From: an uncultured beta proteobacterium
Lineage (GTDB): Bacteria; Pseudomonadota; Gammaproteobacteria; Burkholderiales; SG8-39
NCBI GenBank assembly: GCA_903859155.1
Contig: CAIOLO010000044.1
Coordinates: 1-64,000, forward strand
Reading direction: 5' to 3'
DNA: 64,000 nt
A program made the translations under genes and the position numbers. Of this stretch, positions 45,034 to 53,223 are shown piece by piece. The notes beneath the pieces were generated by a model, which was given only the letters and a program-made list of their open reading frames with translations, made no database searches and was not told the DNA's origin. Position 1 is the first letter of the stretch, and every line of letters begins with the position of its first letter.

Positions 45034-45220
45034 GGCCTTCCCTTCGCTGCTGAGTCTGGCTTTATAGCACCTGGTGCGGACTCGGGCAATGCGGCCGGGT
45101 AGTTCTGTGCCGGCGTAGCAAAAGGAAAGCACAGTGCCGACGTTGGTACCTGACGTTACACTTACCGGCAATTGCCACGCGTTTGGCGCGGCTTCAGAAA
45201 ACATCAACCGGAGCAAAGGT

Positions 45221-46192
45221 ATGAAACTCTTCACTGGCACCAAACTTCCAGCTCTGTTGTTTGCCCTCCTTGCAATCGCCCCGGCCGTGCAGGCGCAGTC
45301 CTACCCCGCCAAGCCGGTGCGCCTGATCCTCACTTATTCGGGAGGCATCGACGCGATTGCGCGCCTGATCGCTGTGCGCATGACCGAGGGACTCGGCCAG
45401 CCGGTGGTGGTCGAGGGCCAGGCGGGCGCGGGTGGCGCCATCGGCGCGAGCATGGTCGCCAAGGCGGCACCGGACGGATACACCATTCTTTCCAGCACCG
45501 GCAGCACACAGATACAGCGCGGCTTTCTCATCAAGAACGTGCCCTACGATGCGGTCAAGGACTTCACCCCGATCACGCTCTCCTGGGAAACCTTGATCGT
45601 GGTCGGCGCGACCAATAGCGCGCCATTCACCACCTTCCGTGACATGATCGCCTATGCCAAAGCCAATCCCGGAAAAATCTCCTATGGCACTTCGGGACTG
45701 GGAACCAGCCATCACCTGGCGCTGGAGCAGATCAATCTCCTGGCGGGCACCAACATCGTGCACATCCCCTACAAGGGCGGCGACCAGGTGATCACCGATG
45801 TCATCGCCGGACGCATCCAGGCTTCCTCCTCACCCCTGTTCAGCCTGGAGCCCAGTGTGAGCAGCGGCAAGGCCAGGTACCTGGCGTTCGTCAACACCAA
45901 ACGTTTCGAGGGGGCACCCGGGGTGCCCACGGTGCGCGAGACCCTGCCCGGATTCGAGGCGCCGCCGCTGTGGTCGGGCTTTTTCGGGCCGGCCAATCTG
46001 CCGCCCGCCATCGTCAAGCGACTGCACGCTGAAATTACCAGGGTCGTCGGCACCACCGAAGTGAAGGCCCGCCTGTTTGCAGGCGGCCTGCAGCTGGTGA
46101 ACAGCTCCCCCGAAGAACTCGCGCAGGCAATCAAGCGGGATATCCAGACCGTGGCGGGCATTGTCAAGCGGGCGAAAATTCAGCCGGAGTAA
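45221..46192 (+). CDS. Bug/TctC-family periplasmic solute receptor
   Basis: A 323-residue orphan receptor. The signal peptide ends AVQAQ before SYPAKPVRLILTYSGG. It shares the unusual GG-x-(D/E)-x-(I/L/V)-AR loop with the receptor at 41753, suggesting related ligands. Other marks are PDGYTIL, TSHHLALEQ and HIPYKGGDQ. It is transcribed away from the M24 operon across a 187-base gap that should hold both promoters. Hairpins follow the gene. The start at 45221 has an AAAGG ribosome site. Confidence 0.9.
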   Translation: MKLFTGTKLPALLFALLAIAPAVQAQSYPAKPVRLILTYSGGIDAIARLIAVRMTEGLGQPVVVEGQAGAGGAIGASMVAKAAPDGYTILSSTGSTQIQRGFLIKNVPYDAVKDFTPITLSWETLIVVGATNSAPFTTFRDMIAYAKANPGKISYGTSGLGTSHHLALEQINLLAGTNIVHIPYKGGDQVITDVIAGRIQASSSPLFSLEPSVSSGKARYLAFVNTKRFEGAPGVPTVRETLPGFEAPPLWSGFFGPANLPPAIVKRLHAEITRVVGTTEVKARLFAGGLQLVNSSPEELAQAIKRDIQTVAGIVKRAKIQPE

Positions 46193-46347: not shown

Positions 46348-47337
46348 TTATTCCGGTTTGATTCCAGCCAGCTTGGCGGCCCTGCCGAACACCTCGAATG
46401 CCTGCTTGTAGGCCACCGCGAATTCCTCGGGCGTGTTGCCCACGCCGGTGTGCATGTTGGTCTCCAGCCAGTTGCGCGCCTCCGGGGTTTTCAAGGATGC
46501 GGCGAGCTCGCGATACAGGCGCACGACAATCGGCCGCGGCAGAGCCGGCTGGCCGAACAGCGCATACCAGGACGCGGGCTTCTGAAACGAAGGCACGGTT
46601 TCGGTGAAGGTCTCCAGGTCCGGCGCACCGGGATAGCGTTTGGGTTCGAGCAGCGCGAGGATCCTGATCTTGCCGGCCTTCTCCAGCGGCCGTGCCGTAC
46701 CCAGCGTCAGGAGGGTCATTTCGATGCGCCCGCCGAACAAGTCGTTGAGCGCCTGCGGCGGCCCCTTGTAGGGCACGTGCACGATATCGAGACCCGCAGC
46801 CTGTTTTATCAATTCACCGGTGAAATGAAAAAACGAACCGATGCCCGGCGAGCCGTAAGACATCTTGCCCGGATTGCGCTTCACATGATCGACGAATTCC
46901 CTGACATTCGTCACCGGCACCTGCGGGTTGAGCAGCAGCACCGTCACCGGCTCGGCGGCGATACTGATGGGCAACAATTCCCTGGCCGGGTCGATGGGCA
47001 GGGTCTTGGAGATAAACACGCTGGTCACCACCTGGCTGGGCGTGGCCCAGAGCAGGGTGTAGCCGTCGGGCGCGGCGTGCGCCACAAGTTCGGCGCCGAT
47101 CATGCCGTTGGCGCCGGCGCGGTTCTCGCCTATGACGGGGTAGCCCATGGCCTCGCCCATTTTGGTGCCGACCAGGCGCCCGAAGAGTTCGAACGACGAT
47201 CCGGGAAGCGTCGGCAGAATCAAGCGGATGGGTTTGGCCGGATAGTCCTGTGCATGGGCGGGAAGCTGCGCGATCCCCAGGCCGATGCCCGCGGCGCAAT
47301 ACAGCGCGCCCTTGATGAACTGCCGAAACGGATTCAT
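46348..47337 (-). CDS. Bug/TctC-family periplasmic solute receptor
   Basis: A 329-residue orphan receptor with a signal peptide ending PAHAQ before DYPAKPIRLILPTLPG. Marks are PDGYTLLWAT, GSFFHFTGELIKQ and HVPYKGPPQAL. It is 29 bases downstream of a glutathione S-transferase gene on the same strand, so the two may be cotranscribed. The ligand is unknown. The first ATG at 47337 is preceded by AGGAG and begins the basic n-region of the signal peptide. Confidence 0.9.
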   Translation of the reverse strand: MNPFRQFIKGALYCAAGIGLGIAQLPAHAQDYPAKPIRLILPTLPGSSFELFGRLVGTKMGEAMGYPVIGENRAGANGMIGAELVAHAAPDGYTLLWATPSQVVTSVFISKTLPIDPARELLPISIAAEPVTVLLLNPQVPVTNVREFVDHVKRNPGKMSYGSPGIGSFFHFTGELIKQAAGLDIVHVPYKGPPQALNDLFGGRIEMTLLTLGTARPLEKAGKIRILALLEPKRYPGAPDLETFTETVPSFQKPASWYALFGQPALPRPIVVRLYRELAASLKTPEARNWLETNMHTGVGNTPEEFAVAYKQAFEVFGRAAKLAGIKPE

Positions 47338-48298: not shown

Positions 48299-48925
48299 AT
48301 GGCTGATCCTATCGTCGTCAACGTCTTCTCCGATTACGTTTGACCCTGGTGCTACCTCAGTACCGTGCGTATTGAGAAACTGAAAGCAAACTACGACATC
48401 GTCGTCAACCTGGTGCATTTTCCGCTGCACGCCGACACGCCCGCCGAGGGCGTCTCCCTGGATGTATTGTTCCCCGGCAGCAAGGCCGCCGAACGCGCCG
48501 CCAGGCAGGAGCGCATGATGGGCCTGATGGAGGCCGAAGGCCTGCCCTACGGCGAGCGCACCCACACCTACAACAGCCGCCTGGCGCAGGAACTGGGCAA
48601 ATGGGCCGATACCCAGGAGGGCGGCGCGGCCTTGCACGATGCGATTTACAAGGCCTATTTCGTCGAAGGCAAAAACATCGGCGACCTGGAAACCCTGGTA
48701 GCACTGGCGCAATCGGCAGGCCTCTCCGCCGAGGCGGCGCGTAAGGTGCTCAGCGAGCGCAGCTTCAAGGATGCGATAGACGAGGACTGGTCATCGTCGC
48801 GCAAGGCGGGTGTCACCGGAGTGCCCACCTTTGCCGCCGGCGGCTACGGTGTGGTGGGCGCGCAACCCTACGAGGTGCTGGAAGAACTCATGACGACGGC
48901 GGGGGCGAAGCCGCGGAATGTCTGA
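48299..48925 (+). CDS. Candidate selenoprotein: DsbA/FrnE-like oxidoreductase with in-frame UGA (UPWC)
   Basis: A 208-residue thioredoxin-fold protein of the DsbA/FrnE (2-hydroxychromene-2-carboxylate isomerase-like) group, if the UGA at 48341-48343 (codon 15) is read as selenocysteine. The N-terminus reads VVNVFSDYV-U-PWCYL, exactly where FrnE-type proteins have CPWC, and the second Cys is kept. Downstream landmarks HFPLHADTP and the cis-Pro loop GVTGVPTF are intact, with no other stop. A hairpin fitting a bacterial SECIS follows 12 bases after the UGA. Ignoring the UGA would leave a GTG start at 48365 and a protein without its active site. No sel genes are in the window. The alternative is a point nonsense mutation or sequencing error (TGC or TGT to TGA). 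Confidence 0.72.
48356..48376 (+). promoter_or_regulatory. Candidate bacterial SECIS element
   Basis: CTCAGTAC (48356-48363) pairs with GTATTGAG (48369-48376) over 8 bp with one G-U wobble, leaving the loop CGTGC. The loop starts 20 bases after the UGA and has G at its second position. These features fit the usual bSECIS model: apical loop about 16-37 bases from the UGA, a stem of at least 4 bp, and a G within the first two loop bases. Confidence 0.6.
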
Positions 48926-48960: not shown

Positions 48961-49374
48961 CTATTTCATAGGTAGATATTTCATCAGACGTACCAGGTCT
49001 CGGTCGAAGCTGAAGACTTTCCAGCCATTTTCGTGCGCAGTAGCGGCAACCAGCGCGTCCACGAAGTCCACGTTCTGGTCCCGATAAAGCGTCAACGCTC
49101 GGCGCACAGCCCCAGATTCAGTTGCGACACCACGGTAATCGAGCAAACCCAGAAGTTTGTTCGCGACATCCTCTCGCGTGATCGTATAGACGCGCGTCAG
49201 CACATATACACACTCGGCGAAGACGGCAGCGGGAGTATAGGCTGTCGCCGACCCTTCTCGGACCGGCTCGAAAAATGCCTTGGCGCGCTCGAAATGCGCT
49301 CTCTCGTTTCCGAGCAGCAGGGAAACGATGACGTTTGCGTCAACGACGCTTGTGCTTTTGTCTGACAACGGCAT
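48961..49374 (-). CDS. vapC: PIN-domain toxin (VapC-like)
   Basis: A 137-residue PIN-domain ribonuclease, the toxin of a type II toxin-antitoxin pair. Acidic active-site positions are visible in VVDANVIVSLL, FAECVYVLTR, DFVDALVAA and FSFDRDLVR. VapC-type toxins cut tRNA or rRNA when free of antitoxin. The start at 49374 lies inside the antitoxin gene (35-base overlap), which ties their translation. The pair sits alone between the selenoprotein candidate and a Bug receptor gene. Confidence 0.85.
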   Translation of the reverse strand: MPLSDKSTSVVDANVIVSLLLGNERAHFERAKAFFEPVREGSATAYTPAAVFAECVYVLTRVYTITREDVANKLLGLLDYRGVATESGAVRRALTLYRDQNVDFVDALVAATAHENGWKVFSFDRDLVRLMKYLPMK

Positions 49375-49585
49375 CCCAGGCCCGCTCACGTGCAAGCGCA
49401 TAGGGCACCGGTTTTCTAGCGTAGTGCGCCAGACTTCCAGCCAGATCCGCTACCGGCTCGATACTGACTTTGCCGGCGTCGCAAACTATCCGGACAAAAT
49501 CCGTACCGAGTACTTCACGAACCTCGCGCGGCAGCGTGATCTGTCCCTTGCTGGAAACTTTAGTGCTCTTTACCACGGCACTCAT
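49340..49585 (-). CDS. AbrB/SpoVT-domain antitoxin
   Basis: An 81-residue antitoxin with an AbrB-type swapped-hairpin DNA-binding domain: STKVSSKGQITLPREVREVLG is the family signature at about residues 7-27. The C-terminal half should wrap the PIN toxin. It lies first in the pair, as usual for antitoxins, and would repress its own promoter. An A/T-rich stretch with a possible AAGG ribosome site precedes the ATG. Confidence 0.88.
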   Translation of the reverse strand: MSAVVKSTKVSSKGQITLPREVREVLGTDFVRIVCDAGKVSIEPVADLAGSLAHYARKPVPYALARERAWDAVVRQKHKRR

Positions 49586-49666: not shown

Positions 49667-50641
49667 CTAATCGATCTTGATGCCCAGGCCGCGCACCAGC
49701 TTGCCGTAGCGTTCATGCTCGCTGAGGATGAACTGGCCGAAGGCCTCGCGCGTGGTGATCCAGGATTCCGCGCCGCCGACACTGCTGATTCTTTCCGCCA
49801 CTTCCTTGTTGGCAAGTGCGCTGTTGATTTCATTGTGCAGCCGCGCGACGATGGGCTCGGGCGTGCCCGCCGGTCCCCAGATGCCCAGCCAGTTGTTGAA
49901 CGAAACCCCCGGGAAGAACTCGCCTATGGTCGGAACGTCCGCCAGGTAGGTCAGGCGGTTCTTGCCTGAGACGGCGACCGCGCGCAGCTTGCCGGCCTTG
50001 ATCTGCGGCGCTGCGGATGTGCCCGCCACAACCACGGGGACGTCTCCCGCAATCGCCGCGATCACCGCGGGCGTGCCGCTCTTGTAGGGCACGTGGGTAA
50101 GCTCGATCCCCGCCTGCTGCTTGATGGCCTCCATGGTCAGATGATGGATGCTGGCGTTGCCGCCGGATGCGAAATTGAGCGGCGGATTGGCGCGCTTCGC
50201 ATAATCGAGAAACTCCTTGAAAGTCTTCACGGGCACAGAAGGATGCACCGAGACCACCACCTGGCTGATGGTGGTGCTCGCAATCGGCACGATGTCCTTG
50301 AGCGTGTCGAAAGGCATCTTGGCATAGACGTGCGGATTGATCGCCACCAGGCTGTCCGCGCCGTACAGGATAGTGTAGCCGTCGGGCGGCGCCTTGGCGA
50401 CGTATTCTCCGGCAATGTTGCCGTTGGACCCTACACGGTTCTCGACGACGACCTGTTGCCCCAGTCTCTCCGACATTGCGGGCGCGATCACCCGGGCGCC
50501 GATATCGGGCGCCCCGCCGGGTGCGATCAGCACGATCAGACGGATAGGTTTCACCGGGTAGGACTGCGCTTGCGCGTAAGAGTGCAGAAACGCGAACGCG
50601 ACCGGCGCGAACGCGAGAACCAGCTTGCTGACAGAATGCAT
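49667..50641 (-). CDS. Bug/TctC-family periplasmic solute receptor
   Basis: A 324-residue orphan receptor. The signal peptide ends YAQAQ before SYPVKPIRLIVLIAPGG. Marks are PDGYTILYG, GGNASIHHLTMEAIKQ and HVPYKSGTP. ATG at 50641 is the start; an in-frame TTG four codons earlier is less likely. It is followed on the same strand by the toxin-antitoxin pair, separated by about 80 bases. Upstream lies another Bug gene in the same direction, 205 bases away. Confidence 0.9.
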   Translation of the reverse strand: MHSVSKLVLAFAPVAFAFLHSYAQAQSYPVKPIRLIVLIAPGGAPDIGARVIAPAMSERLGQQVVVENRVGSNGNIAGEYVAKAPPDGYTILYGADSLVAINPHVYAKMPFDTLKDIVPIASTTISQVVVSVHPSVPVKTFKEFLDYAKRANPPLNFASGGNASIHHLTMEAIKQQAGIELTHVPYKSGTPAVIAAIAGDVPVVVAGTSAAPQIKAGKLRAVAVSGKNRLTYLADVPTIGEFFPGVSFNNWLGIWGPAGTPEPIVARLHNEINSALANKEVAERISSVGGAESWITTREAFGQFILSEHERYGKLVRGLGIKID

Positions 50642-50846
50642 GAGCGCTCCCAAATGAACAGAACCGAAGCATCCTGCGCGCCATCCGCGGCCGATGTCAA
50701 GCCTCCGGAATCATGCAGCCATGCACGGCCACCGATACGGCCGCATTGGAAATACGGAAATCGAACCATGAACCAACATCAGGTTGCTTCAAGTTTCTTG
50801 CAGGCGCTGGGTTGAACCCCTGACCCGCAACAGCCCTTCGATGGGC

Positions 50847-52251: not shown

Positions 52252-53223
52252 ATGAAACAATACACACCAGGCCTGTTTTGCCTGTGCGCCTGCCTTGCAG
52301 CACCACCAGGGGCCATGGCGCAGGCTTATCCGGTCAAACCGATACGCGTCATCGTGCCCTTCACGGCGGGCTCGCTCCCTGATCTGGTGCCGCGACTGGT
52401 GGGCGAAAAAGCCTCCGCGGCGCTGGGCCAGCCGATTCTTGTAGAGAACCGTATCGGCGCAGGCGGGCGCATCGCCGCCGATGCCGTGGCCAAGGCCGCA
52501 CCCGACGGCTATACGCTGCTGCTGGGCACCGCGACCACGCATGTGGTCGCCCCGTTCCTCGTCAAGAACATGCCCTACGATCCGTTCAAGGATTTCACCC
52601 CCATCATCAACGGGGTGAGCCCGGTCAACGGGTTCGTCACCAACGCAGCGCTGCCGGTCAATTCGGTGCGCGAATTCATCGACTACGCGAAGAAAAACCC
52701 CGGCAAGATCGCCTATGGCAGCAACGGCATCGGTTCATCGCATCATCTGCGCGGCGAGTTCCTGAAAATGGTGGCGGGCATCGACATGCTGCACGTGCCC
52801 TACCCCGGCTCCAACGAAGTGGTCACGGCCGTGGTCAACAACTCCGTGCAGCTGACATTTTCCACGCCCAGTTCGGCACAGCAGCACGTCGCCGCCGGCC
52901 GGCTGAAACTGCTGGCGATCACCATGCCCAAGCGCGCGCCCAATCTGCCCAATGTACCGACCGCGGATGAGTTGCTGCCGGGATTCTTCTCAACCCTCGA
53001 CTGGTTCGGATTCTTCGGCCAAGGCAACCTGCCGCAAGCCATCGTCGCCCGGCTCAATGCCGAATTCGGCCGCGCGCTGGCGCATGCCGATGTCAGGTCC
53101 AGGTTCGAGGCCATGTCGGTGCAGATCATCGGCGGCACGCCGGAAGAGTTCGCCGCGGTGATGAAATCCGACTATGCCCTTTATGCCAAGATCGCCAAGG
53201 CCGCGGGCATACAGCCGGAATAA
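52252..53223 (+). CDS. Bug/TctC-family periplasmic solute receptor
   Basis: A 323-residue orphan receptor with a Cys-rich signal peptide ending AMAQ before AYPVKPIRVIVPFTAGS. Marks are PDGYTLLLG, GIGSSHHLRGEFLK and HVPYPGSNE. It starts a plus-strand unit with the hydantoinase B-type gene (36 bases on) and the CaiB-type CoA transferase gene, so it probably imports or senses the substrate of those enzymes. An AGAAAAAAAA stretch precedes the ATG with only weak ribosome-site character. Confidence 0.9.
   Translation: MKQYTPGLFCLCACLAAPPGAMAQAYPVKPIRVIVPFTAGSLPDLVPRLVGEKASAALGQPILVENRIGAGGRIAADAVAKAAPDGYTLLLGTATTHVVAPFLVKNMPYDPFKDFTPIINGVSPVNGFVTNAALPVNSVREFIDYAKKNPGKIAYGSNGIGSSHHLRGEFLKMVAGIDMLHVPYPGSNEVVTAVVNNSVQLTFSTPSSAQQHVAAGRLKLLAITMPKRAPNLPNVPTADELLPGFFSTLDWFGFFGQGNLPQAIVARLNAEFGRALAHADVRSRFEAMSVQIIGGTPEEFAAVMKSDYALYAKIAKAAGIQPE

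Follow-up and report, generated by a model that had tools for sequence, protein, structure and literature searches.

DsbA-like selenoproteins of COG2761 carrying a UxxC motif were first reported in 2005, from nine Sargasso Sea sequences (PMC1088965). The same kind of protein was found again in GOS as "DsbA 1" (PMC2398784), and a "DsbA-like protein form 1" is listed in a 2026 review (PMC13188914). A small apical loop containing a G has been described as a common feature of bacterial SECIS elements (PMC1088965), the hairpins found downstream of the UGA. Among proteins of solved structure, FrnE of Deinococcus radiodurans (DR_0659; PDB 5CNW, 5CO3, 5COH, 5CP1) has been described as a cytoplasmic disulfide reductase whose mutant shows sensitivity to cadmium and diamide (PMC8945050). 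An earlier survey, based on the genomes available in 2006, named FdhA, a Sec-containing formate dehydrogenase encoded next to selABC, as the sole selenoprotein in alpha- and betaproteobacteria that decode Sec (PMC1794560).

Here we describe a gene in a stretch of 64,000 nucleotides of DNA, the whole of which we refer to as the window. With a probability of about 0.96, judged from sequence comparison, this gene encodes a FrnE/DsbA-like enzyme with selenocysteine at an in-frame UGA (Table 1). Like the COG2761/PF01323 selenoproteins, its product is DsbA-like, would carry Sec at the first position of the CxxC motif, has widespread Cys homologues and is encoded with a downstream hairpin that has a G in the apical loop; this likeness to the Sargasso Sea and GOS proteins rests on the published description of their family. 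Unlike those proteins as described, the window member belongs to a betaproteobacterial-type family, its close orthologues are near-universally of the Sec form, and one relative of the gene lies beside selABC. The gene is a well-supported addition to a selenoprotein kind known since 2005, and its newer aspects are an unusually clear pattern of hairpin conservation and an interesting lineage.

Table 1. Coordinates of the seleno-DsbA gene, its elements and a second likely selenoprotein gene of the same genome
Feature	Position	Strand	Details
FrnE/DsbA-like selenoprotein CDS	48299..48925	+	208 residues plus terminal TGA; translation with TGA = U
TGA read as selenocysteine (residue 15), attacking residue of UPWC	48341..48343	+	Sec/Cys pairing in homologues
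Cys18, resolving Cys of UxxC	48350..48352	+	Sequence; invariant in alignment A2
Candidate bacterial SECIS hairpin	48356..48376	+	Arms 48356-48363 and 48369-48376; loop 48364-48368 (CGUGC), G at 48365
GTG, expected start for a standard gene caller, inside the hairpin loop	48365..48367	+	ORF list
Pro176 of GVPTF, expected cis-Pro loop opposite the UxxC site	48824..48826	+	V175 and P176 invariant in A2
UGSC-family gene, second likely selenoprotein	L146:9705-11600 (G000:C9)	minus	Two genes upstream of selA

The initial annotation had described a frame from ATG 48299 with one in-frame TGA, and direct reading bore this out: the TGA is codon 15, within SDYV-U-PWCYL, the frame between 48299 and 48925 is free of further internal stops, and it ends at TGA 48923-48925. 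The read-through product is MADPIVVNVFSDYV-U-PWCYLSTVRIEKLK..., 208 residues in which Cys18 is the sole ordinary Cys. The TGA had also been placed at the first Cys of a CPWC motif with homology on both of its sides. Both points held, in that homologues have TGC or TGT at this position of SDYV-U-PWC and relatives align with the protein from end to end. Translation table 11 gives a longest ORF of 186 aa that begins at GTG 48365 and lacks the active site, as had been foreseen for a standard annotation.

The proposal that Sec takes the place of the attacking Cys called for an alignment of Cys and Sec homologues. At the UxxC codon, 100 homologues compared at 40% identity or more have TGA in 29 cases and TGC or TGT in 71; the 29 TGA rows comprise 27 distinct sequences, and some of the loci from the genome contigs are themselves family assemblies (e.g., L009 and G002:C12). 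The residue found as the alternative to TGA is always Cys. Such pairing at exactly one codon is far beyond chance and supports Sec at the catalytic position. Scanning the GTDB genome contigs yielded 80 homologues, seven with TGA and the others with TGC or TGT, and one of the seven (L042, 50% protein identity) is from Desulfobacterales. The 98 genomes of the window's family contain 23 close orthologues (58-100% identity, counting the window's own), 22 of which have TGA at this codon; the lone close orthologue with TGC is L114 in genome G075, and its downstream sequence differs. Of 399 sampled genomes from the order, just four have a close relative (E <= 1e-50), and all four belong to the window's family.

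Downstream of the UGA, the RNA can form the hairpin CUCAGUAC-CGUGC-GUAUUGAG (48356-48376), which agrees with published bacterial SECIS elements in its position and in the G of its small apical loop. The initial annotation makes no mention of such an element. Seven base pairs are preserved in 10 of 10 aligned hairpin variants. Each of the positions +5 to +10 (Leu Ser Thr Val Arg Ile) is written with essentially a single codon in the Sec orthologues, where the mean codon homozygosity (F) is 0.988 vs 0.575 at 17 other conserved codons. The same region of the Cys homologues has a mean codon homozygosity of 0.267 and no frozen hairpin sequence. The frozen-codon pattern reaches as far as the Desulfobacterales locus at 50% identity, where a G-U to A-U change preserves the pair. 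The 50-nt stretch has a fold energy of -9.2 kcal/mol, and when the window stretch was recoded synonymously 5000 times, only 15 versions folded equally well. Against dinucleotide shuffles the hairpin has a z of -1.0, unremarkable alone, and covariation carries no information in arms that hardly change; the weight of the SECIS case therefore lies on the synonymous constraint. Rfam at gathering thresholds gave no match in the window, which we do not count against the hairpin, and a search of viral contigs for the hairpin pattern gave none either. In the window's genome the pattern occurs once, at the seleno-DsbA gene.

The initial annotation had named a search of the genome for selA, selB, selC and selD as a check and a lack of sel genes as grounds for refutation; all four genes are present, and the proposal stands on this point. 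The tRNA-Sec (selC) scores 60.2 bits in Infernal (cut-off 47) and has a UCA anticodon; selA (580 bits), selB (364 bits) and selD (428 bits) all score above curated cut-offs. ARAGORN misses this tRNA-Sec (L001:1501-1589, on contig C9), which Infernal finds clearly. selA and selC lie on C9, selB on C35 and selD on C101, and the seleno-DsbA gene, on C44, does not adjoin its own sel genes. We infer that Sec is inserted at residue 15 in a SelB-dependent manner: SelB carrying Sec-tRNA-Sec (UCA anticodon) would bind the hairpin and insert selenocysteine at UGA 48341, and the terminal UGA of the same gene would still terminate translation.

The TGA form also goes together with the machinery across the 98 family genomes. 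selA is present in 20 of 22 genomes with the TGA form vs 23 of 76 others (Fisher p 6e-7) and selC in 17 of 22 vs 23 of 76 (p 1.3e-4); these p values assume independent genomes, an assumption that does not hold, and selC was counted at 55 bits or more because tRNA-Ser and tRNA-Leu genes also give 45-51 bits. Neither selA nor a clear tRNA-Sec was found in two TGA-form genomes, G052 and G066 (73% and 85% complete), and three more (G085, G050 and G059) have selA and no clear tRNA-Sec match. In G075, the genome with the close Cys form, neither selA nor selC was detected. Physical linkage occurs in several relatives: (i) in G070, selA, selB, selC and the seleno-DsbA gene lie head to tail on one strand; (ii) in G022, selB and selC lie ~2.3 kb upstream of the seleno-DsbA gene on the same contig; and (iii) in G086, selC follows a thioredoxin-reductase-like gene and lies ~1.2 kb upstream of the seleno-DsbA gene. 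The thioredoxin-reductase-like gene (L150:71-982; G086:C46), which immediately precedes selC and thus also lies upstream of the seleno-DsbA gene, encodes a flavoprotein that is a possible reducing partner.

There are several other ways to account for a TGA at this position. A sequencing or assembly error for TGC or TGT, in what would be an ordinary Cys-containing FrnE-like enzyme, would need a single base change, and the window does come from a draft assembly of 172 contigs. However, the TGA is common to 29 homologues in many separately assembled genomes from at least two phyla, which excludes a base error, and the TGA forms share a hairpin sequence that is missing from the Cys forms. An ordinary gene with a stop at codon 15 would be inactive, as expected of a pseudogene, yet the TGA is kept across the family down to ~58% protein identity, with the remaining frame intact and the synonymous sites downstream under strong constraint. 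The UGA here is followed by C, generally a leaky stop context, and one could suppose an unspecific leak without Sec or a genetic code in which UGA is tryptophan or another standard residue genome-wide. Against both, TGA terminates the gene itself and many neighboring ORFs, the genome has a dedicated UCA tRNA-Sec plus selA, selB and selD, and the site alternates only with Cys. We regard sequencing error, a pseudogene, a reassigned code and plain readthrough as effectively excluded.

It could also be argued that the true product is the 186-residue protein from GTG 48365, the longest table 11 ORF, which has no active site. This start would discard the invariant DYV[C/U]PWCY block and the N-terminal strand; moreover, the upstream ATG is conserved in 25 of 27 distinct Sec orthologues, and the GTG itself sits in the hairpin loop. 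We consider such a product exceedingly improbable and favor the selenoprotein translated from ATG 48299.

The assignment of the protein to the FrnE/DsbA-like group proved right. With C put at position 15, the sequence matches Pfam DSBA (PF01323) with an E value of 2.8e-33 (115.8 bits, cut-off 25.6), the domain including the motif U15-P-W-C18, and a phmmer search of solved structures matched FrnE of D. radiodurans (E 3.7e-24). An AlphaFold2 model built from 24 homologues has a mean pLDDT of 94.0 and a pTM of 0.90. Its best solved match is again D. radiodurans FrnE (Z 26.3, rmsd 1.7 over 202 residues, 32% identity), whose structures were ranked first by both Foldseek and VIA-align and were joined among the best matches by SCO1869. 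Below these, at Z ~19-21, came kappa-class glutathione transferases, YjbH, a putative protein disulfide isomerase and 2-hydroxychromene-2-carboxylate isomerases. In the model, residue 15 directly precedes the helix of residues 16-31, a position at which the attacking residue of a DsbA-like fold is usually found. Residues 12-19 are invariant across the 24-sequence alignment (A2), as is V175-P176 of the expected cis-Pro loop, and the frame is intact through that loop, as initially proposed.

FrnE of D. radiodurans shares with the window protein the fold, the CPWC/UPWC position and a predicted cytoplasmic location, the last judged for the window protein by eye from an N-terminus with no signal-peptide-like sequence. 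It differs in having Cys rather than Sec and in its C-terminal CxxxxC (PMC8945050). This second motif, present in many FrnE proteins, is absent from the window protein, which has one ordinary Cys; it is also missing in some FrnE proteins and is not strictly defining (PMC8945050). No second close copy or Cys paralogue of the gene was found in the window's genome. A role like that of D. radiodurans FrnE is plausible by analogy. The gene product would be a cytoplasmic thiol-disulfide oxidoreductase with Sec in place of the attacking Cys. By the same analogy, from which its substrate and reaction direction are taken, the selenolate, at the N-terminal end of helix 1, would attack a disulfide or other oxidized thiol substrate and Cys18 would resolve the intermediate; glutathione, thioredoxin or another thiol may then recycle the enzyme.

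In the window, the seleno-DsbA gene has as neighbors a glutathione-S-transferase-like gene and, on the opposite strand, a PIN/antitoxin-like pair. The pair consists of a PIN-domain gene and an overlapping AbrB/MazE-like gene (48961-49585, minus strand), lies just downstream and is likely a toxin-antitoxin system. Genes with the sequence appearance of tripartite-tricarboxylate-type (Bug) substrate-binding proteins surround the locus at 45134-46192, 46348-47337, 49667-50653 and 52252-53223.

Searching the sel-gene regions for conserved TGA positions identified a further candidate. A UGSC-family gene in the window's genome (PF24696, E 3.7e-19) has TGA at the U of the motif (C9:77629-77631), near selA, and by its sequence is likely a second selenoprotein. 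The idea that the seleno-DsbA protein is the genome's only selenoprotein was dropped once this gene turned up. The UGSC family (PF24696/NF041046) is unrelated to the FrnE/DsbA-like protein, and the two have only the use of the Sec machinery in common. The UGSC gene of the window's genome also encodes a long C-terminal region after the UGSC domain that has no Pfam match. More UGSC genes lie near sel genes in several family genomes. Family genomes also contain peroxiredoxin/SelL-like genes (L165, L166, L160, L119 and L124) with TGA at the first position of UPYC (GHW-U-PYC), located close to sel genes or to the seleno-DsbA gene. Arsenite-methyltransferase-like genes with an in-frame TGA (DLWT-x-U-IAGG) were seen near selA in three family genomes (L164:10672, L166:12144 and L167:8677).

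FdhA was considered as the main Sec client of this lineage, and the FdhA searches do not support it. No Sec-containing FdhA was found in the window's genome, and the examined sel-gene regions of the family contained no FdhA-like gene with TGA; their few FdhA-like (molybdopterin oxidoreductase-like) matches are not of the Sec type.

A protein tree of 109 rows, in which the Sec/Cys column was kept and written as C throughout, requires at least four changes for the Sec forms. The close Cys form (L114/L022) is nested in a mostly Sec clade with support 90/95, and this placement suggests a reversion from Sec to Cys there. Taking these observations together, we see an even chance that the Sec machinery of this Burkholderiales-type family works for redox and detoxification selenoproteins (FrnE/DsbA-like, UGSC, peroxiredoxin-like UPYC and arsenite-methyltransferase-like), not formate dehydrogenase, that selABC travels with them, and that the FrnE/DsbA-like subfamily, maybe ancestrally Sec, gave rise to Cys forms by repeated reversion.

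Our results suggest that the FdhA-only statement of the earlier survey (PMC1794560) does not hold for the window's lineage. Standard annotation would cut the enzyme short at GTG 48365, and public genomes therefore probably carry it misannotated. The clade offers an unusually clean natural comparison: near-identical hairpins accompany proteins that have diverged deeply, and a single close orthologue with Cys occurs in a genome from which selenium use has apparently been lost.
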